In this document: in pieces, positions 4,419 through 37,948 of the stretch | Layout of the letters: each line of letters starts with the position of its first letter | How positions within the stretch are numbered: position 1 is the first letter of the stretch | Source: Mesaphorura yosii | Taxonomy: Eukaryota > Arthropoda > Collembola > Poduromorpha > Tullbergiidae | Assembly (NCBI GenBank): GCA_009869945.1 | Contig: WIXG01000539.1 | Span: 1-41,215, forward strand | Reading direction: 5' to 3' | Length of the DNA stretch: 41,215 nucleotides | Translations under genes and position numbers: made by a program | Notes under the pieces: model-generated | The model's input: only the letters and a program-made list of their open reading frames with translations | Database searches by the model: none | What the model was told of the DNA's origin: nothing

Positions 4419-5390
4419 ATGCCCAAGGTAAAGACTTCGACTTCGAAGGCCTCCGAGGGACATCTGAAATGGAAGGAAGAGGAAATTGTCACAATGCTGG
4501 ACCACTGCTTGACTACTATTCAAGAAAATAGATTTATCGAGGTAGGCACAACCATTGCTAGACAAGATGTACATGTTTGGCGGGCCAGGAACCAACCAAA
4601 TTTCCCAATTTCAGAAACCGACTGCCCTTCGCTATTGGAATGACTTTCTCCAGACAAATAAGTTCGAGAATTGCCTGCCAATGTGTTGAGGCACAAATTC
4701 CGTATGCTGAAGGACAAGTACAACAAATTTAGTAATTGGCTCAGTCATACCGGACAAACAGCAGAACCCGACCAAGTCGATGGTAAGTAAAATCATGTCA
4801 AACCAGTGCACTATAATCTATACGCTATAATCGGTAAATTTCTTTGCTTCAAAGCGATGAAGCAGAAGATCTGTCCCTTCTATGATAAGCTGCACGAGCT
4901 TTTGTCAGAGAAATCAAGTGTGCACCCACCCGCTGGAGTAGAACTTGGTACAGCGGACGCATCAGTAATCTTGAATGGGGATCCCGACTTGCCAATTTCA
5001 GATGTATTCGACGAAGAAGACCTACAAGAAATCATGGGAAACCAGGACCCGGCAGGTCCTGAAGTGAATCTGGCTCATTCGTCAATGAACTCAAGATTCC
5101 CTTCATCCTTCGAATTAAATCAGCGAGTCACTAGTACTGAGCGAGGCAAGGCAAGCAAACAGTCGAGAATATTGGAAACGTACGAAGCAAAGTCGAAGGT
5201 AAAGTACGAGGAGCTTCAAGTTGAACCGAAGAAGCTGGAGTTCGAAAAAAATAAGTGGATGGATGAGTGTCAATGGCGAGAGCGCCAACTTGATATGGAG
5301 GAATCTAGGGAGAAGCACCGAATGGACATTTCCTTCAACATTCCAAACACATGTTCGACCTTGACCCGGTACTTGATAACTTTTTGTTGA
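4419..5390 (+). pseudogene. Harbinger Myb/SANT-like DNA-binding protein, frameshifted
   Basis: Three exons are visible: 4419-4541, 4615-4782 and 4855-5390, with short GT-AG introns of 73 and 72 bp. Exon 1 begins the trihelix domain (GHLKWKEEEIVTMLDHCL). Exon 2 continues it, with KPTALRYWNDFLQTNKFE in one frame and LRHKFRMLKDKYNKF in another, so a frameshift lies near 4665-4675. Exon 3 has an acidic linker and then a Glu/Lys-rich helical tail, as in accessory proteins that bring the Harbinger nuclease to DNA. Its 3' end overlaps the 3' end of the nuclease gene on the other strand. Confidence 0.65.
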
Positions 5391-6488
5391 ATCTTCGCCT
5401 TCCTCTCACGGACCCAAGCGTGGCATTTGATCTGGAGTAAAAAAAATCATTACAAATTACCATTACCATTAAGCCATTTCATTATATGTTCATGCATACA
5501 TACCTAAATGGGACAATTACTGCGCTGGTGTTTTTGTAAGCCGAATCTCCTGCAATCCACTCTCCAGGGGACAAGTAATTTTCGACTGAACGCCCGAAGT
5601 CATTTTCTGCAAATACTCGAGCGTCATGCACACTCCCAGGGTACTTGATAAATGCATTAAGGATTTTCTTGTCATGTCCAACGGTACATTGCATTTGAAT
5701 GGAGTACTCCTTGTTGCGGTTAAAGTATGACTCCGGGTCACTCAAAGGCTTCTCTTCTAAGGGGACATGAGTTCCATCAATGAAGCCAATACTATTGGGA
5801 ATCTTGTCTCGTACTTCGTTCCGAATTTGTCTTCTTTCTTCAGGATTCGGCCAAAGGATGAACTTATCAGCAAGACTTAGAATTGCCTGATAACGAAGAG
5901 CAATTGTTAGGAATAACAATCCTGATAATAATGCACTCACTCTTACGAGAAATGGCGTACCTTAATTACACGGTCTGTGACTCGACTGACGCTTGATCGG
6001 TCGCCCATACCGAATTCCCTCGCCAACTTATAGATGGATGTTGAACTTCCATAATGGCCCAGTCTGTAAAGTGTTGCTGCTAGTTGCACGTGGACAGGAA
6101 ATTGCTGCATCTCTTTCTCCGTATGAAATACTGGATGATCTTTAATGAGGATGAGAATCTCATTGAACTTTTGTCTGCTTACTCGGAGCTCCTGCTTAAA
6201 GCGATGGTCGTCTATTTGGTACAACACAATTCAATGAGTAGTGCTCGATGGATAAATATGGTTTACTAAACCTGACTTACCATATCTCGCCAGCAAGTGG
6301 ATTAAGCAGTCAGTACCATTGGGCACACTCGGGATTGGTTCCAGATAAATGTAAACGCATTTATCGACAACTATTTCTAGCGCTTCTTCCAGACCACCTT
6401 CATCTTCACTACTTAAGTATTCCACTAGAATGTCGAATTCTTCGAACACTCCGTCGAAAGATTGCTGTCTTAATGATTTTCGGGGCAT
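5311..6488 (-). pseudogene. Harbinger DDE nuclease (transposase), frameshifted near the C-terminus
   Basis: Exons on the minus strand: 6488-6281, 6211-5961, 5886-5504 and 5431 to about 5311, all with GT-AG borders and short introns; the first two junctions and the third keep the frame. Exon 2 carries a helix-turn-helix-like region (QFPVHVQLAATLYRLGHYG). Exon 3 carries the nuclease core: IGFIDGTHVPL gives the first Asp and YPGSVHDARVF the second. In exon 4 the final Glu block (KVEHVFGMLKE) is one base out of frame. This is the HARBI1 family domain order. Length and order are near complete, but the frameshift predicts loss of the last catalytic residue. Confidence 0.75.
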
Positions 6489-7394: not shown

Positions 7395-9276
7395 ATGTCT
7401 GTTTGCCATCAGCGTTCTGTGCTTCTGCTCTCGCTTTCTGTGTCTCTGCTTGTGTGCGTGGTGGTCACGTACTTGCCCATGGACACATGGCACCAGGTCA
7501 CTGCAACATGGCAGCTGAACCCACGCCCACCTCCCCGTCCTGCGCCCGTATTCAGATCAAGGCTTGGGGCCAAGGCGATCCATGTACAAGCCAGAATCGG
7601 CGACATTTGGCCTCCACAACCGACGCAGAAACAAATGGAGAGGCTGAGGGCCGCGTTAGCGCCCATAGCGACGGCAATTCCCACGCCCTTCTATTGGGGT
7701 GACCTTGCCGCCACGGAGCCCCTGCAAATGAAGAACGTTAATCTAAGCCAGGCGGACCGAGTCGCAGTTCTCGCCGTCGTGTCGGCGATTGTACAGGAAC
7801 AAATCAGTACACTTCAGTCGACTCCACAGTCGCCTGAAGAATGTTCGGAGCTCCCATCCATCAAATGTGGTCACCCAAACTCCAACTGCGGGTTTGGATG
7901 TCAGTTCCACCAGCGAGTTGCGTGTCTTATGGCGTCGTACGCGCTTGGAGTGTCGCTCATCCATGACCTGTCCTCCTGGACGTATCAGCAAGGATGGAAC
8001 GACGTGCTTGAGCCGCTGGGAATTAGCGGGTGCGACCCAGGACGAAACACGTATATCATTGAGTGGAGAGACAAGAGGAAGATCCCTCAGATCTGTAAGG
8101 CAGCTTCATTTTAGCTAGTGTAGAATCCCTCCTTCCCAGACAAGGAAACATCACCGGCTCGCCGACACAAAACTTCCGTTATCTTAATCCACAAACGATT
8201 CGTTATCTTAGTCCTAAGAACATGATCCTGAATCTGGGAGGTGGCCATATTCGCCAAGATATGAGCGTTTGAAGATTTTGATCTCAAAGGGAATTTATAG
8301 GAAATTTATCGTAAACAAAATTAATTGCTTAAGATTCCTTTGGTTAATTTCCATTAGGAATCCTTGAAAATTCAACCTCAAATGCTCGTATCTCAGTGAA
8401 TATTGGCTATGAACCCCCCCCCACCTTCAGGATCTTGTTTTTAAGAATGAAATAACGAGTCATTAAAGTTTGAGAAAAATCTGAGTCGAATAGCTCGTGA
8501 TGTTTCCTCGTGACTCACTGTCAATCGTATTGTTAGACAGGAAGGACAACAGAAACGACACCTTCACGAACCCGCTGCTCGTTGGATTGCACGTGCCAGC
8601 CACGCTTGGGTCTGTCGTCGAACGCTTACATCCAAGCCCTTGGGAATGGTGGATGGGCCAGTTTATCTCGCACGGCTTTCGGCTCAGATCGGAGCTCCAT
8701 CAACAAATTGACCGGGAGAAAGAGCAGATTGGGTTCAGCGTCGCCATTGCGTCCGACGCCGGAGGACCTGTCATTGGAATGCACGTGCGCCGAACAGACA
8801 AGCTCCACGAAGGCAAGGCGGGCAACCACAACGTGACCGAGTACTTTGAGATCGCCGAGGGAATTCTTGCCACCAAGTATGCTGCTGCCAAGTTCAGCCA
8901 GGACTCTGGTCCCGGCCGATCACGGGCATCAGTGTTTATTGCCTCAGACGATCACACAGTGCTCGACCAAGCTCGCCGGGAGTACCCGGCCCCAGAATGG
9001 AATGTCATGGGGTTCGAGACTAACAAAACTCTGGCCAGGCAACGGGAGCGTGTAACCGAGCTGTACTCCATCCTGCGAGACGTTGCTGTGCTCACAGAGT
9101 GCGATTACGTGGTTTGCACGTTCTCGTCAAATATTTGTTGGCTAATCATGGAGCTCTTCGCTGCTCGCTTCGGAGCGGAAGACCCTCGCGAAAGAGTGTA
9201 CTCTTTGGAACACAGCACAGCATACGGGTTTATGATGGCAATGAAATCATTTCCAGAGAAAGTCAACAAGTATTAA
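7395..9276 (+). CDS. FUT8-like alpha-1,6-fucosyltransferase, copy B (GT23)
   Basis: Two exons, 7395-8094 and 8537-9276, phase 1, 479 aa. The layout is the same as copy A: N-terminal anchor, Pro-rich stem, CGFGCQFHQ, HVRRTDK (H316-K322) and ECDYVVCTFSSNICWL, ending at almost the same residue (FPEKVNKY). The intron sits at the same codon as in copy A but is 442 bp instead of 69 bp because of a foldback element inside it. The first 160 or so residues are nearly identical to copy A even at silent positions, whereas exon 2 differs at roughly three residues in ten. Both copies keep the catalytic motifs, so both look functional. They may differ in acceptor choice, since the differences concentrate in the catalytic domain between the conserved motifs. 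Confidence 0.88.
8201..8457. repeat. foldback MITE-like element in intron of gene B
   Basis: The two halves are complementary. CGTTAT at 8201 pairs with ATAACG ending at 8457, GATCCTGAA (8224-8232) pairs with TTCAGGATC (8426-8434), and the inner stretch at about 8244-8273 (GCCATATTCGCCAAGATATG) pairs with 8376-8407 with mismatches. There is no coding capacity. A run of nine C lies at 8414-8422. Copy A has no such element in its intron. The target duplication is unclear. Confidence 0.6.
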
Positions 9277-12769: not shown

Positions 12770-13385
12770 GTCACATTTGTGTTCCTTGAGCTTATCAGCT
12801 CGATGAAAAGACTTTTAGCACCTGTTGCAACGAAACTTAGGTGGCCCGTGAGTACTCATATGACTGTTCAGTGATTGTGGAAAGGAAAAGACAGCTCCGC
12901 ACACCTTGCATTTGAACTTTCTGATTTTCTCTTTGCCACTGTTACCTCCATTTTCATCTTCGCTTTTGTTGTCAACGTTTTTCTTTTCCTCTTCTGGTGT
13001 TCTTCCCTTCCTTCATTTCTGCTTTCCTCCTTAGAATTGGGGTTTTCCGACTAGTTTTCATTTAAATCTTCTTTCGCTTCTTTCTGTCTCTTTTCTTGTT
13101 TCCTGTCCTCCCTTCCGCTGTTACTTCCCGCATTTCTCATTTTAATTTCTTCTCTGTCCCTCGCTAGTTTCCACCTTTCTCTGCGTAGCGCTTCTCTTTC
13201 ATTTCTTATTGTAGCTCTTTCTTTTGCTATTTCATCTCTCTCTCTCTTGATCTCTCCTCTCTCGTTTGTCAATTCCATTCTTTCCTGTGCTATTTCTTCT
13301 CGTTCCTGTTTCAGGGCTTTCCTTTCTTTTGCGATCTCTTCCCGTTCCTTTTTCAGTTTTTCATTTTTGCGTTTGCTTCGTTTCT
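12770..13385 (-). pseudogene. coiled-coil plus C2H2 zinc-finger gene, broken
   Basis: On the minus strand, a long Glu/Arg/Lys-rich helix (13384-13054) repeats variants of a ten-residue unit, such as KEREEIAKER, QEREEIAQER and NERGEIKRER. A C2H2 block follows in another frame: FKCKVCGAVFSFPQSLNSHM and then FRCNRC-stop-KSFHRADKLKEH. The stop lies inside the second finger and at least two frame changes separate coil and fingers, so this copy is dead. An upstream open stretch (13558-13361) rich in Lys may be its 5' part. Nuclear DNA binding would be the ancestral role. A similar zinc-finger fragment lies at 23190-23536. Confidence 0.55.
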
Positions 13386-13657
13386 ATAAAATTCGTCTTT
13401 CCCTTTCCTAAAGTCCTTTTTTTCGGCTCCTTTACTTTTTCTTTGATAATCTCGTGGGGACGACGTGGATGAAAGAGTTGACTTGACTGCTCCTTCATGA
13501 CCTTGACTACGATGCCGCGATGGTTAACTCGTCGCGGAATGAAATGCTTAAAAACCAACTTGTCGGTTTACCTCGGCTACTACTCGTGCATTTAAACGGA
13601 AAGTGAACTATATTTAATAAAACGGAAGAGTGAGACACGGAGCAGTCGGAATGTGAA

Positions 13658-13663
13658 TTTATT
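13658..13663 (-). terminator. polyadenylation signal of the DUF229 gene
   Basis: AATAAA on the minus strand only about 12 bases after the stop, implying a very short 3' untranslated region. Confidence 0.5.
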
Positions 13664-13674
13664 TGCTTCATCTG

Positions 13675-15880
13675 CTATCTCCGCACAGTTTTCTTCTTTC
13701 CCTTCTTGCCCTTGACGAGTTCTGCGCAGACGCAGAGCTCCTTCATTTCCTTGTCCTTGTCCGTGTCCGCCGCGATGCAGGCGCTCTGTTCGCCGTAGGT
13801 GTTGATCCGCGTGAAGGTGCCTAGCAGCTCCGCCCCATCAAACTCGCTCTTCACATGCGCGATCCGAACCTTCGCCTCAAAGTGGGCCTCGAGCGGCTCC
13901 GCGCTGAACTTGAGGAGGACGTCTGTGGAGGCGCTATCGTTGGAAAGCACCTGGGAGGAGAGGACCGAGTCCACGTCGGTGCTCCAGCGGGCGCACTTCC
14001 CTGCGTAGCCACCCATCTGCACGACCTCGTTCAGCGTCTTCTGCATGAAAGGCATCAGCTTGTTCAGCACGAAGGGGTTCCTCATAGGCTCCCCGTGCGC
14101 CGCCGTGTTGCACGCGCACGACTCTCCCAACAGATGCAGCTTCTCACACGTGCGTGTCCCCGCCAACCTCACAAACAGGCTGGACCGGTCCTCCAGCACG
14201 GGGCGGAAAGACTCTTCCTCAGTTCCACGTCCATCCAGGTGCAGGAGGTGCCTCAAGGTGTGGTGCAGGTCGAACGGCGTCACGAGCCTCCTTCCCGCGT
14301 TGAACCTCAGCGCCTCCTCGAATTGAGGGAAGCGTCTCTTGAGGGCTTCGGGCACCCTGACGAAGAGGGGCGGTAGGGCCCGTTCAATGTAGGCCTCGAT
14401 GGAGGCGGAGTGGAAGAAGCTCGTCCGGTCGCCGTGGTCGCTGAGGAGGACGATGAATGTCCGCTCGAGGAGTGCTGAGTTACCTGCGAGCGCCTTCATG
14501 AGGGCCAGGAAGTCGTCGTCCATGGTGGGGAGAGAGTAGATGTCGTCGTGGAAGGGGTACGCGAAGAAGGAGAAGCCGAAGAACGGCACCCCCGCCGCAC
14601 TGAACTTCTCCGCGAACCGTCGCGTGTAGCGCGCCATGAACTGGGGCACCGTTTCGTTGGACGAGCAGTAGGCGTGCAAGTCGTCGTTCCACTTCTTGGC
14701 GGGTCCGCCCGGGGCGACAGCGTGGGTGGGCGAATGCTTCTTGCGGAGAGGGAGCATCGCGTTGAAGAGCGGGTGGGCGTAGAAGTCGGTGGGGGGCTCT
14801 GCGAAGCCCGACTGGCCGCCCCAGTTAAACGTCTGCGTCCCGTCCTCCACGTACATCGTCACGTAGCGCGCCGCCCCAAACTCCTGCCAGATGAGGGGGC
14901 AGCGGTCGAAGGTCGAATGCCAGTCGGGCGCGCACGTCCGCCGCACATCGCTCCTCGTCGTCCCCATCAGGAACGCCATGAAGTTGGTGAGGGTGGAGCC
15001 GGAGGTAGAGTGGTAGCCCTGGAAGTCCACAAACTCCAGGGCGGAGGTCATGAAGTCGAGGGTGCGGGGAAGGGAGCGGTACGCGTGCGAGCGCGACACC
15101 GAGTCGATGCCCAGAAACAGCACGCTGATGGGCTCCACCTCCGCATCTCTCCCGTTAGTCTCCGGCTGAGTGTTCCAGTGCTTGAACTTCTCCACAACCG
15201 CCGGTTTGTTTGTGGGGAAGGTCGTCTCGAAGTTGAGGCGGTCACCGCAACGGACGAGGAGCAGCTCCTTCCCGTACACGTGCGTGGAGGTGCGGAGGGG
15301 CTCGCACTCGCCCAGTGTGTAGCCTTGGTCAGAGTGCGCACCTTTCCGCGTTATTTCGTGTACGCAGCAGTCCTTGGCGCCCTCCTCGGCGGGGAGCAGT
15401 CGCAAAAACTGGGAATGACGGCAGAATTTAAATTAAATTTGCCTGCGGAGAATGCGTAAACGTAGAACTCACTTCGTCGTGCTCGAGCGTCGCGAGCTGT
15501 CGTTCGTAGTCGCACTTTGGGCTCCAGTTGGTGTGCCAGGCGCCCTTGCTACCCTTCTGGAAGTACGCGGGCAAGATTTCTGTACGTGGAATCTTGCAAC
15601 TTGCCTGGTTGACGATGAGCGTCGGGTCGTCGGGCGGGTCCTCGTCCGCAAGCACAGGCGTGGTCGGCTCGGACTCTGCGTCAGTGGCCGGCTTCCACGG
15701 AGCGGGGACGAGGGGCACGGGTTGGCGGGCACGCGCGCCTCCGCCCGAGTAGATGGTGATCTGGGTGAAGTTGTAGCTGACGACGTCGTGGAAGGAGTAC
15801 AGGAGGAAGAGGAGCGAGACGCAGATGAGCCCCAGGAGCAGCGCCTTTCCCCGCTGCGGAGTCGGAGGCAGGCTGAGCAT
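13675..15880 (-). CDS. DUF229 family membrane protein (sulfatase/alkaline phosphatase-like fold)
   Basis: Two exons on the minus strand, 15880-15473 and 15408-13675, phase 0, 64-bp intron, 713 aa. Residues about 13-30 (ALLLGLICVSLLFLLYSF) form a type II anchor, so the large C-terminal part faces the Golgi lumen or the outside. The ectodomain has the DUF229 core: VLFLGIDSVSRSHAYR with the metal-site Asp (D238), STSGSTLTNFMAFLMGTT, DWHSTFDRCPLIWQEFG, YVEDGTQTFN and LLSDHGDRTSFF (D460, H461), the second metal motif of the alkaline phosphatase superfamily. The Cys-containing tail (TRTCEKLHLLGESCACN) is also typical. The family is expanded in nematodes and arthropods; the substrate is unknown, and hydrolase activity is inferred from the fold. 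Codon third positions are strongly G/C. The GTG-initiated upstream extension was rejected in favour of the ATG at 15880. Confidence 0.88.
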
Positions 15881-20527: not shown

Positions 20528-22299
20528 CTACAATGTAATGCAAGTTTCTATAACGCCATGATAATTATAAAAGAAGCAGTCGAAACAAAGAATTTTCCTA
20601 CAATGAGCACACTTTAAAAACCGTTCTTTCTTACACTCGGAGTTAGATAAGTCACAGACAGTCGAATCAGAGTCTGTGAAGGAAAAACAAGCTTCTTTGA
20701 CTGTTTGAAAGTTTTCGGATTTCTTCGCAAGCCCAGCAGTGACCCAACAATATTTGATCATCGGCTTAAATGTCTTTGACTTAAACTGGTGGTGAATCAA
20801 CGACTGCATTCTTATAATGCTGTCCCTCGTCGTTAACTGCAATGCATGGAAGAGTTTTACGAAAAATCCAAACCGAAATATAAATGTAATTACGGTTTTC
20901 TACCTCATCTTGTGGATGTAATGCCTGGAACGATGCGTAGGAAGTGATTTGCTTGGCAAAATACTTCAACTGCAGGTGAAACGTTGTATCCAAAGGTTGA
21001 CACATGGACGTTGTCTTTTCTGGCACGTATAGCGTGGTGCAACTTATGTCTTCATCAAATACATTTTGATACAGCGCAGGGTCAGTCTGACCAGTCCAGC
21101 AGTCCAGAATGTAGAGGAAGTGATCCTTAAGTGCAGGCTTCAGTACATTATGTAAAAAGTACTGGACGTGCGTTGAAGTGAGCTTTCCAGATTTGCTGCA
21201 GGTGACTATTACATTTGGTGCGCCGAAAATATTTTCTTCAACGATGGGGCCCAGTCTTCCTGACTTCTCTTGTAAGCAGAGAAATAAGTCACCCACAACG
21301 TCTCCAGCTAGGCTAATCACGTACTGGACGGTATACGAATGTGTAGCCAAGTTCTTCGGCGATTTTGCTAGGGCAAATGTTGCTTTCTCTCCAATGTGTG
21401 ACAGAGTCCTTTTCGGTATCAGTTCGTAGGTAAAACCGGCCTGGTCTGTATTCACAACGCAATTGGGTGCAAAATGTCGGGATTGGTCTTCAAATTTCAG
21501 GCGGAATGCTTCTGCTGATTGTAGAATAGAATCTGACGATTTAACTTCTCTTCTGCTGACGACTTTTGTAATTTTTCGAGAGCGTATGGCGTGTCGATCT
21601 TTGAATTTTTGTGTCCAGGCTGTACTTGCACTGAACTTGAAACTTTTGTTTTCTAGTTGGTTATATTTTTGAAGCGCCCAACTGCGAAGATGATTGTCGG
21701 TGATACAGTTGAAGGCTTCTCTTGCTTGAAGGAACATGGTCCATGTGTATTCGTCTATTGACTGGTACTTGTCAAATATTGTGCCACCTGCATCGATTTG
21801 ACCTTGCCACTTCTTTTTGTACTTCATGTCTTTGAATTCGGTGGCACCATTTTTTCGTATAGTGTTAAGACTCCAATTTGGATGATCACGGATAAGTTGA
21901 AGTATTTCCATCTTCCTTTTCAAGGGCACCTGGGACTTGCTGGGGAAAATTTCTTGGCCTTCGTCATTAAAGCAGGATCCTTGGCTTGCCGATGACATTT
22001 CACTGCTAGCCTGTGAGTCATCTGGAATACAACAATGGAAGTGTCGGAATATCATAGTCGTCAATTCATTGATCAGTTTATGAGTAGTGGAACTTACCAT
22101 CTAAATACAATTCTGCCTCCTCGATCAGTTTTGAGTCCGACAATACATCCAAAAATCTGTTCAGCAGCTCCTTCGCTATCAAAGTTTCTTGCTTGGAGGC
22201 GTCTCGAGGTTTAAAATTAGGAAATTCCTTCTCTACCAAAATCACGAACTGTTTCGCAACTGAAGAAGGGCTTATCTGAACTTCTTCCGGGCCCTCCAT
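20528..22299 (-). CDS. pogo/Jerky-like transposase (CENP-B HTH plus DDE domain)
   Basis: Exons on the minus strand: 22299-22098, 22021-20904 and 20836-20528, GT-AG borders, phases 1 and 0; 542 aa, or 551 aa from an upstream ATG at 22326. Exon 2 has an N-terminal DNA-binding part, then a CENP-B-type HTH (SASTAWTQKFKDRHAIRSRK), then the DDE nuclease: NTDQAGFTYEL (first Asp), LYILDCWTGQTDP (second Asp) and VPEKTTSMCQPLDTTF, the conserved block before the third acidic residue. Exon 3 ends in a Cys-rich finger-like tail (FLKCAHCRKILCFDCFF). No stop or frameshift was found, and AATAAA (minus strand, 20425-20420) follows the stop, so the gene may be functional. Confidence 0.78.
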
Positions 22300-24291: not shown

Positions 24292-26259
24292 TTATGGACA
24301 TTTGTCTTTCAAAGGCATTTCAGAATTCTGCGACTGAAAGTTGTAAGGCACAATTGAAAACCCCGCATTGTGTACATTCATGATTGGCCATTCTTCTGCT
24401 CGCGTGCAGTGCGTGACTCCGTACGTGTACCACACAACCACATCCTCGTTCAGCACCGACTCATTGTCTTGCATGTACTTCGGCAGTCCTTCGCCAGCCC
24501 TTCCTGTCCGTGGGAACTTGTCTGCTGGCGTCTGTTCTTTATCCTTGTAACTTGTAACCCAAACGGGATGCTTGACAAACTGAGCATGTCCAAGAATCGG
24601 GCTTGAATCGGTCAAGTACGTGTACGAAAACGTTTCTGGGCGCAACGCATAACCCCGCGGTGACCCGTGTACATTACGGGAGGCAGCGTTAATCACATGC
24701 CACGAACGCTGTGCCTGGAAATCGTGGTCATGAAACCCCTCAACTGCAACCAGTCTCTTCTTGGCCGAAAACACACCCGGATCAGGATTCTCTGGGCTAA
24801 CGGGATCCGCAGTTACGTCAGTTTCCAAGAAATGATTAGCATGGCCGTCGATATCGAAATCAATACGGTAGTTGAAGAAGTGCTGATGTGGTGGGCCCAC
24901 CAAGTAGTCGTTGATGAAAGTTGTACAGTTCTCTATACAGTCTCCTTCATCCGTGTTTGCTTCGGATACCCCACGTGCCAAAACGATTCCCGTCAGCCTC
25001 GACCTGATTTCCAGGGCACCATCCATTTGGAAAATGTAGTCGAATGTATAGTCATAATTGCCTATTGTCGTCATCATCGTCAACACCAATGCGCGTCCTC
25101 GACGCCCATCCACGTCTCCACTGACGTAGTCCGTATGCTTGTACAAAAGTCCGGAATCTCTTTCATACGCTGCCACGCAGCCTTGGATGATGTATGGTTC
25201 TCCGGTATCATCTTCGACAGCAGTACAGTTGAACAGCACCGCGTTCTCAGGAACATCAAGGCCAATGGTGAGTTGGTTTACATTCTTGCCAATGCCATAT
25301 TCACCCGCATCAAAAGCCGACCGCCACCGCCACGCTCGACCTTTGCCTCCATAGGGTACAAACATCTCTGCCATATTAGCCTTATACAACACCATTCGTT
25401 GTTCGCAGTCGGCGTTGTATGTCACGTGACGAAGCTGTAAACCGAAGATCGGGTCCATGCTGTAATGTAACTTCCATTTGTACCAAGACAGACGTTGGCC
25501 TTCTACTTGAATCGACGTCCCAGAAGGTTGATTTATTTGTAGAGGTTGCAGAAATGGCTTGTCGTCAAAATTTGGCAACTCTTCGATGCCAGATGTCATG
25601 TTGACCCGTTCGTCGTCCCAAACGGAAATCACAATGTGATTATGCAAGTCAACGGTGACGATCAGACCTTCTACAACGCTCCAGTATGAGAATCTAGACT
25701 TCGGGTTGCGGAAATTGGTGATGGCACGCACGAGCCTTCCGTCAGCGCTTTGCTCCTCTGCTGCAAGAAGGCCAGGTGCCCACACATCAAGCACAGCGTC
25801 GTCCGGCTCTAGGCCGCGTGCTTGAATGGCTGCTAGCCATTGTGCATTGGAACGGATGAGCCGCTCAGCCTCATCAAACTCTTCGTTCATCATGGCCGGA
25901 GATACTCCGTCTGGTTGTTGAGTGATGTCGGTAACGCGCCCAGCTTCCAAGTCAATCACCATCTCCACCAGCAGGTTAGAAGTCATGTCGAATAGTGCCG
26001 CGTACGCACGACGCACATATCCTGCAGCGGACTGTGACAGCCAGTCTTCTTTCTTTGGCTCTTGCGTACGAATTATTGGGTATTTGATTGTGCCCGGAAA
26101 TGGACCAAAAGCCTTGATAATTTGCAGGGTCCGACTAATTTCATCGGGGGTCAAATCGTCAAATGGACAACGGTCAAGTCCCTCACACGTTATGACATTA
26201 GACTTGATTGGCGTTGCTAGAAATGAAAAAAGGATGACCAAAGGTACTAAACGCTCCAT
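24292..26259 (-). CDS. secreted copper amine oxidase (intronless)
   Basis: One uninterrupted exon, 655 aa. Residues 1-20 form a signal peptide (VPLVILFSFLATPIKS), so the enzyme is secreted or luminal. Copper/topaquinone amine oxidases oxidise primary amines to aldehydes with release of ammonia and hydrogen peroxide. Key residues are all present: catalytic base Asp317 in FDAGEYG, the topaquinone precursor Tyr402 in IGNYDY, copper ligands His458 and His460 in PHQHFFNY, and His630 in MNVHNAGF. Spacing (85, 56-58 and 170 residues) is like that of animal and bacterial members. The ATG at 26259 is used; codons upstream lack an ATG. It is divergent from the Kelch receptor kinase with about 850 bp between. 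Absence of introns, as in that neighbour, contrasts with the spliced genes elsewhere in the window. The amine substrate is unknown. Confidence 0.92.
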   Translation of the reverse strand: MERLVPLVILFSFLATPIKSNVITCEGLDRCPFDDLTPDEISRTLQIIKAFGPFPGTIKYPIIRTQEPKKEDWLSQSAAGYVRRAYAALFDMTSNLLVEMVIDLEAGRVTDITQQPDGVSPAMMNEEFDEAERLIRSNAQWLAAIQARGLEPDDAVLDVWAPGLLAAEEQSADGRLVRAITNFRNPKSRFSYWSVVEGLIVTVDLHNHIVISVWDDERVNMTSGIEELPNFDDKPFLQPLQINQPSGTSIQVEGQRLSWYKWKLHYSMDPIFGLQLRHVTYNADCEQRMVLYKANMAEMFVPYGGKGRAWRWRSAFDAGEYGIGKNVNQLTIGLDVPENAVLFNCTAVEDDTGEPYIIQGCVAAYERDSGLLYKHTDYVSGDVDGRRGRALVLTMMTTIGNYDYTFDYIFQMDGALEIRSRLTGIVLARGVSEANTDEGDCIENCTTFINDYLVGPPHQHFFNYRIDFDIDGHANHFLETDVTADPVSPENPDPGVFSAKKRLVAVEGFHDHDFQAQRSWHVINAASRNVHGSPRGYALRPETFSYTYLTDSSPILGHAQFVKHPVWVTSYKDKEQTPADKFPRTGRAGEGLPKYMQDNESVLNEDVVVWYTYGVTHCTRAEEWPIMNVHNAGFSIVPYNFQSQNSEMPLKDKCP

Positions 26260-27110
26260 TGTGACTTTACAGAGCAAAATCGTTGCCGTAAATTAATGAT
26301 GGTGCTCTGTATTGAATTGTGGCTCCTTTTAAGTTCCATTTTCATTCCACAAAACGTCCAGATTCGTGCTGTTGAGTGGCCTACATTATGTGACAAAGTG
26401 TACGTCAGGTGCTGCTTCCAGGAATTGCGAGGCACTTGACGGCAGAATTCTGCTGAATTACCTTACGCCGCTTCATAAATGAATTAGCAATCAATCTGTT
26501 CTTGACAAGATCACGTTGCCATTCCGTGGTTGTCCTCAAGTATCTCAAAAGACGCAACTACAGAGTTTTCCACCAATAACATGACAACTTTTTCACGTTA
26601 AGTCCGGTATCCAAATAATACTCTATGGCAATGTGGAATTGAATTATCTACCTCGATAATAATCAGCAATAATTCATCGCTGAATCACAAATTTCTCATG
26701 AAAGTCGAGCAGTCACAAAGCACGTGCCTTATCGTATGACAATGTACTGTGTGTGTATACTATCACAATTGCAAGTGTAAATGGATGGTAAGTGAAACTG
26801 CATGATCAATTTGCTCACCCATTACCTCTCAGAAGATTTACTCGCAAGCTGTCAACTTCAAAGTCTTTTCGGTTTCAATAATAATAGTAGTACAGTAGTA
26901 TTTTATTTACGTTGAAATGCGCGTCTGTCACAATTTGCCCCATTTGCACCTACATAAATCTACACTACCGGCAACGTAATCCACGGATCAGTAAGAACAA
27001 AGTAAATCATGTTGGCTATAGCTCACACTACAAGTACATTGGTCTTAGTACAATTGTGCAAGTTATAAAGGCATCTCTCGGCTTCTCACGTTGTGAATAC
27101 CTGATTAATA
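26260..27110. other. divergent promoter region of amine oxidase and Kelch receptor kinase
   Basis: About 850 bp, AT-rich. It contains CCTTATC at 26727-26733 and a TATA box for the plus-strand gene at 27064-27069. No gene is supported inside. Confidence 0.5.
27064..27069 (+). promoter_or_regulatory. TATA box of the Kelch receptor kinase gene
   Basis: TATAAA 42-47 bp upstream of the start codon, which implies a very short leader of roughly 15-20 bases. Confidence 0.5.
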
Positions 27111-29252
27111 ATGAAGCTCATAATATTACTCATACTCGTACTTAGTAGTACACAAGTGACAACCGGTGAAATATCGTGGATAGACACAGGCACAAGACTT
27201 CCATCCGGATGCTACGGGTTTACGTCATTGTTTGACGGCAATGACACGATTTACACCATTGGTGGATGGACTGGAACTGAAGCCACAAGTGGACAAGTAC
27301 TTCAGTACACAGTCTCAACTGGCGCAATTGAATTCCATGGATATTTTGTGCCAGTGTACAGCGGACAAGCATTGTTCTTTAATGATGATATTTTTTACTT
27401 TGGTGGTCGCAGCACTTCTGGCCAGTACAGCTCAGCCATTTACAAATATTCAATATCAACGCAGAATTATGTTCACATTAACGACTTGCCAGTCGCCATG
27501 TATTCATTCGCATCCGCCTGGGACCCCGACCAGCAACGATTCTTCATGTTTGGGGGAACCAGCTCCGTTGGTAGCATGGATCACATTCTTCAGTACGATC
27601 CATCAAGCAACCAAGTTCTGAATGTTGGAATCCTTCCCAACGCTTCCTATGAAGCGACCGCAGTTTGGACTGACCACTACGCGTTCATATTCGGCGGTTC
27701 TCCGAGATACGACATGTTGAGATTCGATCCAGCTACGAGAAGCGTAATGAAGCTTGCAACAGGGTTACCCAATCCGATCTTCAGTCCGTGCTCCATCTTT
27801 GCCAACAATAGGCACGTATACATTGTCAACTGGTCTGACATGATGAGATTCGACCCAGACGCTGAACAAGCTGTGCAAGTTCAAACAGATGACAATTGGC
27901 CGGTGTCCATGATGTTCCCGGGAATTGCTTACGTCAGTGAATTGAATAGAATTTACATATTCGGTGGATGGGGCTACTTTGGGGGACAGTCCGGGGATAG
28001 GTTCATGGATGAAATTTCTTATTTGGATCTGGACCAGGATAGGCTTGGAGCGTCCAGGGGAAACAATCAAATCACTCTGTACTTACTCAGTATCGGTGTT
28101 CCACTCTTCGCGGTCTTCCTGTTGACTACATTCTGCTGGTATAGATATCGTAGTAGCCATGACCGTCAACGAATTCAGACAATCGGAGTTGCAAAAGTTG
28201 AAGACGATACTGCGTGGGATCCACCAACCGGTGTTGGGCTCAACGATCACGAGATTGAAGAGTTTGAGTCGGGCGTCCCGAAGCTGAACTACTGCCTCTT
28301 ACAAGACCCATTTATCAGTCGTGGAAATGTAATCTACCAGCCATACAACCGTCTGTTTGAGCTTCAGGAAGATGCCGTAAGGGTGGACAGAGCGCACGTG
28401 TTAGGATCGGGACAGTTTGGGGTCGTACTAAAAGGCGAGCTCGTCGCAACTGGAACCCCCGTGGCTATCAAGACCATAAAATTTGCTAACCGCTCTTCCA
28501 AACACTACGTCAAGGCATTACTTGGGGAACTCAAGATTCTGATTTACCTCGGCCGACATCCACACATTGTCAATTTGATTGGCGCGTGTACAGCACAATT
28601 GCGGAAGGGCTCCGTCCTCATCTGCGTTGAGTTTTGTCAACTCGGGGATATGGAAACTTACCTGCGCGTTGGAAAAAGTTCATTCAACAACAAAACTCCA
28701 TCACATTACAAACCGTGGCAGGACGCGGACCCATTCAACATCCATGACCTCTTCCATTGGAGTTGGCAAATTGCAAACGCCATGTCATACATGGCCGAGC
28801 GTAAAGTGATTCATGGTGATCTAGCCACCCGCAACGTGCTTCTCGCCGATCGTAAATGCGCTAAGGTGACAGATTTCGGACTTGCCAAACAATTGTACAA
28901 TTATACCATTTACATTAGAACTTACGACACGCCAATGCCCTGGAGGTCGCTTGCCGTTGAATCGTTGCGAGAAATGAGTTTCAGCACACAGTCAGACGTC
29001 TGGTCGTTTGGTGTCACTCTGTGGGAGATATTTTCACTTGGCGATATTCCTTACACGGCTGTTACACAATTCAGCATGGACTTTGTCACACGCTTACTCG
29101 AAGGCTTCCGCTTACAACGCCCGGCACATGCTCCGAGCGAGCTCTACGATGCGATGCTAGCTTGTTGGAACGTGCAACCAAAGGAAAGACCTTCGTTTGG
29201 AGAACTCATACAGATTCTTCTAGAAATGGAGGGAAAACACTGCCATAGTTGA
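27111..29252 (+). CDS. receptor tyrosine kinase with Kelch-propeller ectodomain
   Basis: Single exon, 713 aa. Signal peptide about 1-19 (LIILLILVLSS). Residues about 25-315 form a Kelch beta-propeller: Gly-Gly pairs at 51, 98, 148, 195 and 285, each after a hydrophobic strand (YTIGG, FYFGG, FMFGG, FIFGG, YIFGG), and a degenerate blade near 239 (YIVNW), so six blades spaced 44-50 residues. A transmembrane helix lies at about 321-343. The tyrosine kinase spans about 425-705: GSGQFG loop (432-437), VAIK with Lys454, HGDLATRN (H568, D570), DFG (588-590) and SDVWSFGVTLWE. The short insert before HGD and the activation loop resemble the PDGFR/VEGFR group. HRD is changed to HGD, and the APE motif reads AVE. 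Ligand unknown. I know of no standard animal receptor kinase with this architecture. Confidence 0.88.
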   Translation: MKLIILLILVLSSTQVTTGEISWIDTGTRLPSGCYGFTSLFDGNDTIYTIGGWTGTEATSGQVLQYTVSTGAIEFHGYFVPVYSGQALFFNDDIFYFGGRSTSGQYSSAIYKYSISTQNYVHINDLPVAMYSFASAWDPDQQRFFMFGGTSSVGSMDHILQYDPSSNQVLNVGILPNASYEATAVWTDHYAFIFGGSPRYDMLRFDPATRSVMKLATGLPNPIFSPCSIFANNRHVYIVNWSDMMRFDPDAEQAVQVQTDDNWPVSMMFPGIAYVSELNRIYIFGGWGYFGGQSGDRFMDEISYLDLDQDRLGASRGNNQITLYLLSIGVPLFAVFLLTTFCWYRYRSSHDRQRIQTIGVAKVEDDTAWDPPTGVGLNDHEIEEFESGVPKLNYCLLQDPFISRGNVIYQPYNRLFELQEDAVRVDRAHVLGSGQFGVVLKGELVATGTPVAIKTIKFANRSSKHYVKALLGELKILIYLGRHPHIVNLIGACTAQLRKGSVLICVEFCQLGDMETYLRVGKSSFNNKTPSHYKPWQDADPFNIHDLFHWSWQIANAMSYMAERKVIHGDLATRNVLLADRKCAKVTDFGLAKQLYNYTIYIRTYDTPMPWRSLAVESLREMSFSTQSDVWSFGVTLWEIFSLGDIPYTAVTQFSMDFVTRLLEGFRLQRPAHAPSELYDAMLACWNVQPKERPSFGELIQILLEMEGKHCHS

Positions 29253-29988
29253 CGTTGTGCTACGACTGCCACAAATTTACAATTTGTTAATTATAGGAGT
29301 TATTAGTATCATTACTGTATAGTTAAAGTCGGAGAGAAATTGCTACAATGTATTATCAAATTAAAACCCAAATTTCATGAATTAACGTCACGGAATATTG
29401 TACGCCACACTTTGTCCTCTCCACCCTATGTTCGCCTGGTTCTGCTAGCCCAACACAAGTGTGAAAGTTTATTGCCATCATTCAACGACCACGGACCGAT
29501 TCCGAAAATTGTCCTTTCGGAGCCGGATCCATAATTAATTATATACACATTCTATACACAGGTGAGCAAGTCACCAAAACAGCCCACGTGCCGAATTGCA
29601 ATTTTGGTGCAATTTCTAAGGCCCCAGGATTTCTGGCTTGGAACTTTGCATGGTAGCAGGGCCTAGTCGCAATGGCGCAAAGTAGAGCCTGCGATTCCGG
29701 GTGTCTCGAGAGAAACGGAGGCACAAAGTCGGCCTGGTGGTGTTCAGAGGGGCGGGGATTCTATGATGACCCCATCCAAGTTTGGTGTCGTTGGAATCTG
29801 AGAACCTTGGCTTTCCAATGCAACACACCGCAAACGCCCACGACGACCAGGGAGCTACAGGAGGCTCCGAAAGTTCCCACTGCACGAGTGCATTTGTCTC
29901 ATTTGCGCCCCGAGAACGAGGCCGTTCATACATAGTGCGGTGAGCTGAAATCAGTCTGACAGTCAATTCTCACTCGAACAAAACACTT
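29253..29988. other. intergenic region without a recognised gene
   Basis: A moderately GC-rich segment at 29600-29940 is open on both strands for about 100 codons, but neither translation resembles a family. It could be a repeat relic. Confidence 0.4.
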
Positions 29989-33121: not shown

Positions 33122-36100
33122 ATGCTGGACGAGTACTGTGGGTCGCCATTCTGGGTAAGGCACCTTATCAGTGACTCGAGTGCAGTCGGAGTCACGTCCG
33201 CACTCGGCATCACGCACGCAGTTGATCAACTGTGGTATTGCCCATTTTGCAGAATTACTCCGTGAGCTGGGACACCACCTCGCCCCGCCTGAGCCCCTGC
33301 TTCCGTCACACGGCCCTCGTGTGGGTGCCCTGCCTCTTCCTCTGGCTTTGGGCCCCCTACCACGTCTATACCGCCAAGTCCTCACGCTCCAAGCAGATCC
33401 CATGGACACTCCTCAACGGAGCAAAGTTCGGAGTGGGCGCGTCGCTCCTCATCCTCCAGGCGGCCTACTTGGTCGTCCTGCTCACTGCCTCCGCCGACGT
33501 GGTGGCCGACCGCCTCGTCGTGCACGCCCTCTTCCTGAAATGCGCCACCCTCGCCCTGTCCCTCTACCTCGACGCCCTCTCCAAAAACCACGGCCTCCGC
33601 ACGTCGGGTGTCCTCTTCCTCTTCTGGCTCCTCCTCCTCGGCTCTCAGCTCCTGAGCGTCCTCCTCCAACCGCTCTCCGAGTCGGCGGCGCAGGCTGACT
33701 GGCGCAATACCCTCGAAATTGTGTTCACAGCCCTCATCGGGCTCCAACTCGGTCTGAATTGCTGGGCGGACGCAGAGCCAGTCTACAGTGGGACAGGACC
33801 CGCTGAGGTAAATGCCCAAATGTCGAGATAACTAATTATTCGGCGCTAAGTATTCCTTCTCTCTGCAGAAGCCATGTCCCGAGCTCGCCGCCTCCTTCCT
33901 CTCGCGCCTCTGCTTCTTCTGGTTCGAGGGCCTCGCCCGCCTCGGTCATCGCCGCCCCCTGCAACTGACCGATCTGTGGGACCTCCCACCTGAAAACACC
34001 TCCAAGTTTATCAACCCACCCTTCGTGTCTTACTGGGACCGGATGATGCGAGGCGAGGGGAGGGACGCTGCCCCTTCAAACCCCCATGACAGGAACGGAG
34101 TCCAGGCCCAGGCCTCTTTCAGGCGCAAGACCAGCCTCGTGGACCTCGAAGTCGAGTACAAGCCCGATCTGAGCGACGGACCGTCCGTCGACGTGGTGGC
34201 GCCCTCACCACGCCAGCCGGGGAGCATCGTGGCGATCCTCTGCCGGCAGTTCGGGTCGACCTTCCTCTTCGGCTCCCTCCTCAAGCTGGGCCAGGACCTC
34301 CTCGCCTTCGGCTCGCCCTTCATTCTCAGGCGCCTGATCCGCCACACACAGTCGGAGGGACAGGAGGAGGTCTGGAAGGGATTCTTCTTCGCCGTCGCTC
34401 TCCTCGCGCTGAGCGCCGCCGGGAGCCTCGTGGGAAACGCCTACTTCTATCGGATGTACCTTGTCGGGCTCCGCGTGCGGACGGCCGTTGTGGGTTGCAT
34501 CTACCGCAAGGCGCTGCGTGTCGCTAGCGGCACCCAGCAGACTCCCTCCGGCGAGGTTGTGAACCTCATGAGTGTCGACGCCCAGAAGCTTACTGACATG
34601 GCGCCCTACCTGACGATTCTCTGGAGCGCCCCCCTCCAGATCGGCCTCTCGCTGCACTTCCTCTACGACCTTCTCGGCGCCTCCGTCTTTGCCGGACTCG
34701 GAGTAATGATCCTCCTTCTCCCCGTCTCCGCCGTCATGGGCGTCAAGGTGCGTGCGTACCAGAGCCGCCAGCTCAAGGCGAAGGACGCACGGATACGGCT
34801 CCTCCGAGAAGTGCTGGCGGGCATCAAAGTAATCAAGCTGTACGCCTGGGAGCCGGCGTTCGAGGCGCAGGTGACACGGATCCGGGACGGGGAGGTGGCT
34901 GTGCTGAAGGAGTCAGCCGTTGTCGGTGCGGTGGCTATGTTCGTCTGGACCTGCGCGCCGGTCGTCGTCGCCATCGTCACCTTCGCCGTTTTCGTGCTGG
35001 GCGGTGGAGGGGACCTTGATGCGGAGCGCGCTTTCGTGTCGCTGGCCTACTTCAACATCATGCGCGTGCCCCTCAACCTCCTCCCCATGATGCTCGTCTC
35101 CCTCGTCCAGTCCTCCGTCTCCATCAAGCGCATCAACAGCTTCCTCAACGCGGAGGAGATCCGTCCCGTCCCACAAGAAGGGGGCGGCGACGAACCCATC
35201 AGCATTCGGGATGGCAGCTTCGCATGGCGGAAGGGGGAGGGCGTCACGCTGAGGGGCGTCGACCTCTCGGTGGAGCAGGGGCAGTTGGTGGCTGTCGTGG
35301 GCCCGGTCGGGTGTGGCAAGTCATCGCTCCTCGCCGCCCTCCTGGGCGAGATCGAGAAACTGGAAGGGGGCGTCATCATGCGCGGCTCGGTGGCGTACAC
35401 GGCGCAGACGCCGTGGGTGCAGAGTGGGAGCGTGCGAGACAACATCCTCTTCGGGCGCCCCTTTGACCCCATTCGGTACGCTCAGGTGCTCGAGGGCTGC
35501 GCGCTCGGACCCGACCTCGCCGTGCTCCCCGCCGGAGACGCGACAGAGATCGGCGAGAAGGGCGTCACCATCAGCGGGGGTCAGAAGGCGCGCGTCGCCC
35601 TCGCAAGGGCGGTCTACGCCAACACCGAGGTGTATCTGCTAGACGACCCGCTGGCGGCAGTGGACGCGCACGTGGGCAAGCACATCTTCGAGAGGGTACT
35701 TGGCCCGCGGGGGTTCCTCGGCGGGAAGACCCGGCTCCTCGTCACGCACGGAGTCGCCCACCTACCGCAAGTGGACAGGGTCGTCGTGCTGGAGGATGGT
35801 CTTGTCACTGAGCAGGGCACCTACCGGGGTCTCCTGGAGCAGAAAGGCGCCTTTGCCGATTTCCTCCTCCAGCACCTGAGCACAGTTGAGGAGGAAGACA
35901 TTCTTTCGGACCTCGAAGCCGCCTTGGGGAAGAAGAGGGAGGAGCTTCTTCGCTCCGACTCCAAGACCTCGGCTACCATCGAGACAGAAGAGAACGGAGC
36001 TGTTGGGGAGCCGCATAGTGGAAAGCTGGGAGACTTGCAGAAGAGCCGTGTACGAGGGGAAGAGGCGAAACCATCCGAAGACGCCTCCCGCCTGGTGGAG

Positions 36101-37948
36101 GACGAGTTCGTGGAAGAGGGCGTAGTGAAGTGGGGCGTCTTCCTCTTCTACCTGCGGGCCATCGGCTGGAGGCTCGTGGCGACGGCGGTACTTTTCCAGC
36201 TGGTGTTTCAGGGTTTTGCGGTGGGCTCCAACGTGTGGCTGGCGGCGTGGGCGGACTCGGCTCGGGAGAATGGGACGCACCCGCTGGAGAAGGAGTACCT
36301 CAGCGTCTACTCCACACTCGGCGTCGGTCAGGCGCTGGCCATCATCGTCGCGACGCTCGCCATGTCGATCGGCACGCTCTCCGCCTCGGGCCTCCTCCAC
36401 GCTGAGGTCCTGGCTCGCGTTCTCCGCGCACCCGCCGCTTTCTTCGACACGACGCCCTCCGGCCGGGTGGTCAACCGTCTGGGGAAGGACGTCGAGGTAC
36501 TCGACTCGGCGGTATCCATGTCGCTGACCTCCTGGCTGAAGTGCCTCCTCAACGTGGCCGCCACAATGGGCGTCATCACTTTCACCACCCCCATCTTCGC
36601 CCTCGTCGTCGTCCCCACCGCCGCCCTCTACGCCGCCACCCAGCGCTTCTACATCGCCTCCTCCCGTCAGCTCCGACGCCTCGAGTCCGTTTCCCGCTCG
36701 CCGATCTACTCACACTTCGCCGAGACCGTGGCGGGGGCGACCACCGTTCGCGCCTTCCGAGCCGTCGACGCCTTCACCGCCCGCTCGGAGACGATCGTCG
36801 ACCAGAACGCGGCGGCTGCCTTCCCGTCCATCGTCTCCGCCCGGTTCCTGGCGGTGCTGCTGGAGGGCGTGGGCAACCTCGTTATCTTCTTCGCCGCGCT
36901 CTTCGCAGTCACCCACGCGGGCACCCTGACGCCGGGGCTGGTAGGGCTCAGCCTCTCCTATGCCCTCCAGATCACCGCCGCCCTCAACTGGCTTGTAGAG
37001 ACGACAAACAACGTCGAGAACAACCTTGTTGCCGTGGAGCGTCTGAAGGAGTACGCCGAGATTCCGCAGGAGGCGCCCTGGGACCTGGACGGTGACGACG
37101 CTAAGGAGGGGTCGAAGCCGGGGTTGGAGTGGCCGGAGGCGGGGCGGATAGCCTTCCAGGATTACGGGACCAAGTACCGAGAGGAGCTTGAGCCTGTCCT
37201 CCACGACCTCTCCTTCGAGATTCGGCCGGGAGAAAAGGTGGGCTCAATTAAAAGCTCAGGCTACAGCTACAAACGTTCTACTTGAATCCTTTTCTTTTAG
37301 ATTGGCGTCTGTGGTCGGACGGGCGCGGGAAAGTCATCGTTGGCCCTGGCCCTCTTCCGGCTCCTGGAGCCCACTTCCGGTCGAATCGAGATCGACGGCA
37401 GGGACATTTCTGGGCTGGGTCTGCATCAGCTCCGGCGCCATCTGACTGTGATCCCGCAGGACCCGTTCGTGTTTGGCGGGACGATCCGCTCGAACCTCGA
37501 CCCCTTCGAGTGCCACTCCGACGACGAGCTGCAGATCGCTCTAGGCCTCGCCCACCTCCGAAGAAAAAGAGGAGAGAAGGAGGAGGAGAAGGGCCCCTGG
37601 CTGGAGACGAGAGTGGCGGAGGGCGGCGGGAACCTGAGCGGTGGCGAGCGCGCACTGCTCTGCCTCGCTCGCGCCCTCCTCCGCAAGTCGCGGATCCTCG
37701 TGCTGGACGAGGCGACTTCGGCGGTGGACTTGGAGACGGACGACCTCATTCAGGCGACTATCCGCAAGGAGTTTGCCGGCTCATCCGTTATCACCATCGC
37801 CCACAGGCTGAACACCATCCTCGATTGCGACCGGATCCTCGTGCTCGAGGCGGGCGCCCTCCGGGAGCTCGACACGCCGGCCGCCCTCCTCGCCAACCCC
37901 GACTCTGCCTTCTCCTCGCTGGCGAGGGACGCGGGGCTCGACGCTTGA
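33122..37948 (+). CDS. full-length ABCC/MRP-type ABC transporter
   Basis: Four exons: 33122-33154, 33253-33807, 33869-37237 and 37301-37948; introns 98, 61 and 63 bp; all phase 0; 1534 aa, nearly the length of human MRP1. The N-terminus (MLDEYCGSPFWN) is typical of long MRPs and begins TMD0 (five helices in exon 2), so this is the long form. TMD1 and NBD1 follow: Walker A GPVGCGKSS (Lys680), signature ISGGQ (764-768), VYLLDDPLAAVDAH. A charged linker leads to TMD2 and NBD2: Walker A GRTGAGKSS (Lys1330), signature LSGGE (1431-1435), ILVLDEATSAVD. Such pumps export glutathione, glucuronide and other conjugates and xenobiotics from cells. The last intron falls just before the NBD2 Walker A. Third codon positions are extremely G/C rich. 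The 11-codon first exon was chosen because its sequence fits MRP N-termini. Confidence 0.93.

Follow-up and report, generated by a model that had tools for sequence, protein, structure and literature searches.

A PVR-type receptor tyrosine kinase with a predicted extracellular Kelch propeller in the springtail Mesaphorura yosii

The receptor gene and its surroundings

The stretch of DNA analysed here, termed the window, covers 41,215 nucleotides of contig WIXG01000539.1 (C539) from the springtail Mesaphorura yosii. On its forward strand, positions 27111-29252 form a single open frame that encodes a Kelch receptor tyrosine kinase of 713 amino acids plus the stop. The predicted signal peptide (aa 1 to ~19, 27111-27167) is marked by a hydrophobic start on the Kyte-Doolittle scale and by a helix at residues 2-12 of the structural model. 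It is followed by a six-bladed Kelch propeller (aa ~20-318, 27168-28064), whose ring is closed by an N-terminal strand, and by one transmembrane helix (aa ~319-344, 28065-28142), visible as a hydropathy peak of 2.2 and as a model helix at 308-348. A juxtamembrane segment (aa 345-427, 28143-28391), in which alignments place a NVIYQPYNRLFEL stretch common to sister receptors, leads to the tyrosine kinase domain (aa 428-703, 28392-29219), recognized by Pfam (PF07714, 2e-73), by alignment and by matches to the kinases of VEGFR2, KIT and PDGFR. Within this domain, alignment locates K454, E473, HGD 568-570, N575 and DFG 588-590, and the kinase loop reads IHGDLATRN (aa 567-575). Pattern matches alone mark a TATA-like box 41 bases 5′ of the ATG (27064-27069), a possible core promoter, and a polyadenylation-signal-like hexamer 3′ of the stop (29360-29365), both on the forward strand.

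The preliminary description of this locus as encoding a receptor tyrosine kinase whose Kelch propeller lies outside the cell, contained in one uninterrupted stretch, is borne out by the frame, which is open throughout, by the Pfam search, by hydropathy and by structure prediction, which returns a six-bladed Kelch fold. No stop or frame error lies between the two parts in the window, and two sister loci (L002, L005) and the database protein P0001 are likewise single-frame. The six blades are four-stranded as counted, while the Gly-Gly pair expected in each of them occurs in five of the six. Pfam finds no Ig domain and no C-terminal chitin-binding domain (PF01607) in the window protein. A plain Kelch protein of the KLHL/KEAP1 type is ruled out by the predicted signal peptide, the transmembrane helix and the kinase.

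P0001 (ENA; 597 aa, from a 2151-base contig) is 97% identical to the window protein, and its single frame spans the propeller, the membrane helix and part of the kinase. It differs from the window protein at 15 of these 597 positions: 7 in the signal peptide and propeller, 6 in the membrane and juxtamembrane segments and 2 in the covered part of the kinase. The window propeller contains Cys34 (27210-27212) and Cys227 (27789-27791); in most of its relatives, the residue matching Cys227 is likewise a cysteine and another cysteine lies in the last blade. The window propeller lacks the latter and has Cys34 in its stead, perhaps as part of a rewired disulfide.

The GC content of the window ranges from 38% to 66% per kb. 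Upstream of the receptor gene lie tandem alpha-1,6-fucosyltransferase-like copies (965-2602 and 7395-9276, forward strand; FUT8 domain PF19745), each in two frames, a transposase-like frame (20781-22100, reverse strand) that matches a Tc5 DNA-binding domain and, weakly, DDE, and a copper amine oxidase in one long frame (24292-26277, reverse strand; PF01179, 1e-114), divergent from the receptor gene. Downstream, a long ABC-transporter frame (34025-37285, forward strand; PF00664, PF00005) is situated within a stretch of 62-66% GC. Scanning the window against Rfam and for tRNAs returned nothing, and no relative was found among viral contigs. COX1 has no match in the assembly, so the mitochondrial genome seems to be absent from it.

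Kelch kinases and their sisters in the genome

In the 93 Mb assembly, the propeller query gives 114 matches that merge into 96 loci, the weakest of which may be ordinary Kelch genes, and the kinase query gives 160 matches, the best 150 of which merge into 117 loci; these counts are lower bounds because scoring was restricted to the best candidates. A same-strand kinase lies 250-739 bases downstream at nine of the 96 Kelch loci, for 0.045 expected under an even spread. These nine are on contigs C539 (the window), C578, C654, C1099, C732, C487, C553, C775 and C480; C508, with its kinase 2.8 kb away, is left out. Propeller and kinase share one frame at three loci (the window, L002 and L005) and occupy separate frames at L011, L026, L038 and L039; in L011 and L026 the propeller is present at least twice, in tandem. 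The C553 locus (L037) is scattered across several frames and may be broken, and several matches in sister loci contain stops. Between receptor paralogues, dN is 0.2-0.7 and dS is not estimable or ~2.5, so that no dN/dS ratio is given. Among the eight pairs of propellers and six of kinases compared, only the secreted pair L040/L042 yields a usable value (dN 0.158, dS 0.193), which is near neutral. On the contig of this pair (G000:C795), a GH18 chitinase-like frame (4714-6048) lies between secreted Kelch genes at 525-1391 and 12807-13685.

Judged from its sequence, the window kinase is PVR-type (VEGF/PDGF-receptor-like) and ordinary for this class. The catalytic K, E, D, N and DFG are present in all 22 aligned kinases, and the HRD position reads HGD in 20 of them and HSD in two. 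Outside springtails, LHGDLAARN occurs in 60 of 161 database kinases; 37 have no motif match and most others have HRD. The PVR variation is given as HGDLA, with glycine in place of arginine, in PMC11024359. The idea that a non-RD kinase denotes an immune receptor is rejected: the HGD loop is common to ordinary insect and crustacean PVRs, and therefore marks the class and not immunity.

The kinase tree has 73 rows, comprising 28 of the 117 own-genome kinase loci and 45 database kinases hand-picked from 120 listed; P0078 (a 157-aa piece), the springtail matches P0139 and P0171, and L028 (length cut) are left out. All 28 own-genome kinases fall inside a 59-row clade with a support of 100/100, together with kinases of the Collembola Folsomia, Orchesella and Allacma. 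This clade adjoins Penaeus, insect and Daphnia kinases, and two vertebrate VEGFR3 lie apart. It also contains the insect protein P0130 and two metagenome proteins; the position of P0130, from the fungus gnat Bradysia coprophila, may reflect horizontal transfer, contamination or a tree error. The nine Kelch kinases occur in three separate parts of the tree, and a single clade for them is rejected (AU p 8e-80). The clade of the window kinase holds six of the nine together with four lysozyme kinases. As one clade, the six give a borderline AU p of 0.038, for a group that was itself drawn from the tree, and the four lysozyme kinases give an equally borderline 0.039. Five changes separate Kelch from the rest on the kinase tree, and three separate lysozyme from Kelch within the window clade. 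Altogether, the outside part changes 9 times over 27 labelled kinases, L015 (no named ectodomain) being excluded and the labels of L017 (Ig), L023 (Cys-rich) and L014 (EB-like) being assigned by eye. On the reading of this tree, the kinases of a springtail PVR-derived radiation have swapped their outside part repeatedly. Thus, the new receptor class first proposed holds insofar as no description of it was found in the full-text literature search, and fails as one new class, given an ordinary PVR-type kinase and Kelch kinases in three parts of the tree.

Sister kinases carry a wide range of other outside parts, which are linked to the kinase by distance and strand where the frames are apart. 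C-type lysozyme domains are found in or near the kinase frame on C535, C328 and C297; two weak cases, on C346 and C313, score 21 bits and 27 bits, respectively below and at the Pfam cut-off. Subtilases lie 307-698 bases upstream of a kinase at five loci, on C646 (two), C789, C981 and C793; on C789 subtilase and kinase share one 858-aa frame, the C981 locus has one internal stop and the C793 locus is partial. For the kinase L020b, the subtilase is 486 bases upstream. CLCA-like exons occur 2.7-4.2 kb upstream of the kinase at five loci, and the CLCA-like frame has no match among solved structures. Ig domains are present beside lysozyme and also alone on sister kinases, and knottins resembling antifungal peptides at L012 and L027. 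In other arthropods, the same kind of swap is seen in P0107 of Allacma fusca, with a trypsin and nine LDLa repeats on the kinase, and in P0189 of Daphnia pulicaria, with GH18 and Ig on the kinase.

As far as alignments tell, two lysozyme receptors (L030, L031) and one subtilase receptor (L021) are without catalytic residues. Alignment of L030 with lysozymes of solved structure places Ser at both the E35 and the D52 positions; in the family alignment, L031 has Leu, beside two Glu, at E35 and Ser at D52, and L032 has His and Ser at these positions. L032, a fragment with lysozyme and Ig parts, has no kinase on its contig among the matches listed and is excluded from the receptor count. The D52 residue of L009 was left uncounted because the lysozyme exon starts near this position. 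In L029, a lysozyme of this genome that has no kinase, E35 and D52 are both present as read by eye. In L021, the only subtilase part whose residues were aligned, the catalytic His is replaced by Ile and the Ser by Asn, and the Asp is retained; the subtilase part of L020 was read by eye. In P0189, the GH18 motif has Met where the catalytic Glu would be, and the trypsin part of P0107 retains the His and Asp motifs, with a Ser in an altered GDSGG context. To judge by P0107, some enzyme-derived parts are not plainly dead. An apparent loss of the metalloprotease motif in the CLCA parts, assessed visually, is given no weight.

Origin and putative working of the receptor

The extracellular propeller, which had seemed an oddity in the preliminary description, turns out to have company. 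Ten of the ~87 kinase-free Kelch loci were sampled, mostly the best scorers, a choice that favours relatives of the window propeller. All ten look secreted: each has a hydrophobic stretch (15-residue maximum 1.5-2.7) followed by one propeller in a single frame, and none has a strong transmembrane stretch after it (maximum 1.3; in two cases the frame runs off the fetched sequence). A CBM14 chitin-binding domain is recognized by Pfam in five of the ten, and a sixth (L042) is cut off within a similar Cys-rich stretch. The same plan is found in P0076 of Folsomia candida (‘putative chitinase 3’), a kinase-free Kelch protein with chitin-binding domains. The own-genome kinase-free propellers are 33-41% identical to the window propeller, and in a 24-row propeller tree, which took in 11 of the ~87 kinase-free loci, six of them form a 7-row clade with it (99/98), apart from the other receptor propellers sampled. 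This tree is weak elsewhere: its bootstrap is unsettled, and of 21 inner branches 4 are starred and 12 open. A single clade of all receptor propellers is rejected (p 0.008), as is one for the propellers of the window kinase clade (p 0.0096). The window propeller was apparently taken from this family of secreted Kelch proteins, and repeated capture would be the simplest reading; gene conversion, or kinase loss in secreted lines, could yield a similar pattern.

Clues to the working of the propeller come from its loops. Across 18 propellers, the BC loops, all on one face, vary in length in every one of the six blades (SD 1.5-2.8), and the AB, CD and DA loops have SDs of 0-1.1. Length also varies in four of the 24 strand segments (SD 1.6-2.5), and the entropy of the BC loops is slightly higher (2.35 versus 2.08-2.23 bits in other loops). 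BC loops help to form the binding face in KEAP1-type propellers. Given the length variation on the BC face, the sensor step is thus most likely ligand binding there. A mechanism can be proposed in which a secreted Kelch gene contained in one frame was copied and the copy acquired a PVR-type transmembrane-kinase unit downstream, so that the propeller would bind a ligand, probably through the face of length-variable BC loops. Ligand binding or clustering would then join kinase domains for trans-phosphorylation, as in other PVR/PDGF/VEGF receptors; members of the PVR class whose residues are intact would be expected to switch on when two chains pair. Since the parts of the sisters stem from secreted lysozymes and subtilases, without catalytic residues where aligned, the most likely ligands of the Kelch receptor and its sisters are polymers or proteins outside the cell, of gut, cuticle or microbial origin, and not PDGF/VEGF-like growth factors. 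The secreted Kelch relatives might, as a speculation, share the ligand of the receptor or compete with it in soluble form.

A PVR-type receptor with a captured secreted propeller as its putative ligand sensor is, as a whole explanation, considered probable. Its nearest rival, rated as somewhat unlikely, makes the propeller a module for adhesion, spacing or self-association, with the kinase driven by clustering or by partner receptors. Adhesion can indeed be a role of extracellular propellers, and the tandem propellers of L011 and L026 resemble spacer stacks, but loop indels cluster on the BC face as they would on a binding face, and the very different folds borne by the sisters would be needless for a shared spacer role. 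A different history, in which a single old Kelch-PVR fusion later gave rise to secreted Kelch genes and other ectodomains by loss or conversion, is less probable still. It draws on the window clade, shared by six Kelch and four lysozyme kinases, where the test against one Kelch clade is borderline; it is opposed by the three distant clades of the nine Kelch kinases and by P0076, in which Kelch is combined with chitin-binding domains and is kinase-free.

Two further explanations have little in their favour. That the window gene is a recent chance fusion, functionless and decaying, is highly improbable: the scattered C553 locus and the stops in several sister matches would suit it, yet the frame is fully open, the catalytic residues are intact, only two of the 15 changes in the 97% copy P0001 fall in the covered kinase part, and dN between receptor paralogues is 0.2-0.7 while dS is not estimable or ~2.5. 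Even less credible is a secreted Kelch gene joined to a neighbouring receptor kinase merely by the assembly or by an over-read frame. Some 87 Kelch loci have no nearby kinase and four loci (L011, L026, L038, L039) have separate frames, as two genes would; against this stand the single frame of the window, L002, L005 and the ENA copy P0001, and the transmembrane helix that separates propeller and kinase in the window gene. The best reading of the family, in keeping with the captured propeller, is that a PVR-type unit would have been refitted repeatedly with retired secreted proteins. A broader picture can be offered only tentatively, and with less than even confidence, namely a modular sensing system of springtails that combines the PVR-type unit with retired Kelch, dead lysozyme or subtilase, CLCA-like and knottin-like parts. 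Its repertoire would read microbial, food or cuticle polymers as plant receptor kinases do, and the window gene would represent Kelch in it, derived from a secreted Kelch-chitin-binding family that is diversifying.

Comparison with known systems

The usual view of animal receptor tyrosine kinases is of a conserved repertoire whose outside parts are stable. The present genome offers a case of one kinase class whose outside part has apparently been replaced several times, with Kelch, lysozyme and subtilase among the recruits. If these receptors signal, they constitute a natural experiment in coupling a kinase to new inputs and a possible animal counterpart of the large receptor-kinase repertoires of plants. 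The swapped receptors also provide a direct route to asking whether a PVR kinase accepts any dimerizing ectodomain. A full-text literature search found no description of a Kelch-PVR receptor. The narrow distribution foreseen at the outset agrees with a search of the propeller against 5.8 billion proteins, which reaches only similar-length proteins sharing short words: among its three matches, P0001 alone also has a kinase, and more remote examples could have escaped such a search.

With arthropod PVRs, the window protein shares the HGDLA loop, the kinase insert and the matches to VEGFR2, KIT and PDGFR kinases, but the insect and crustacean matches mostly bear Ig domains (Pfam), in place of which it has Kelch. 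With secreted Kelch-CBM14 proteins such as P0076, it shares a signal peptide and a propeller alike over its full length at 25% identity, whereas those proteins end in CBM14 or a short tail, and neither a kinase nor a transmembrane stretch was found in the ten sampled. LZTR1, KLHL proteins, KEAP1 and attractin have the same six-bladed Kelch fold, LZTR1 being the best structural match to the window propeller, but identity is 14-18% among the structural matches listed. The attractin propeller is also extracellular; none of these propellers is known to be joined to a tyrosine kinase.

Unrelated modules on kinases are known from other systems. The Venus kinase receptor is likewise a receptor tyrosine kinase with a ligand-binding module from an unrelated family; it differs in joining an insulin-receptor-like kinase to a venus-flytrap module, with no propeller. 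For choanoflagellates and Filasterea, the legend to Fig. 3 of PMC6993872 lists Kelch with the domains that are shown alongside Eph-like kinases; the text does not say which protein bears it, and the case differs from an animal PVR-type receptor. P0189 (GH18-Ig-kinase) and P0107 (trypsin-LDLa-kinase), known as database proteins, share with the window receptor's family a PVR-type kinase combined with an enzyme-derived outside part and differ from the window receptor in using modules other than Kelch.
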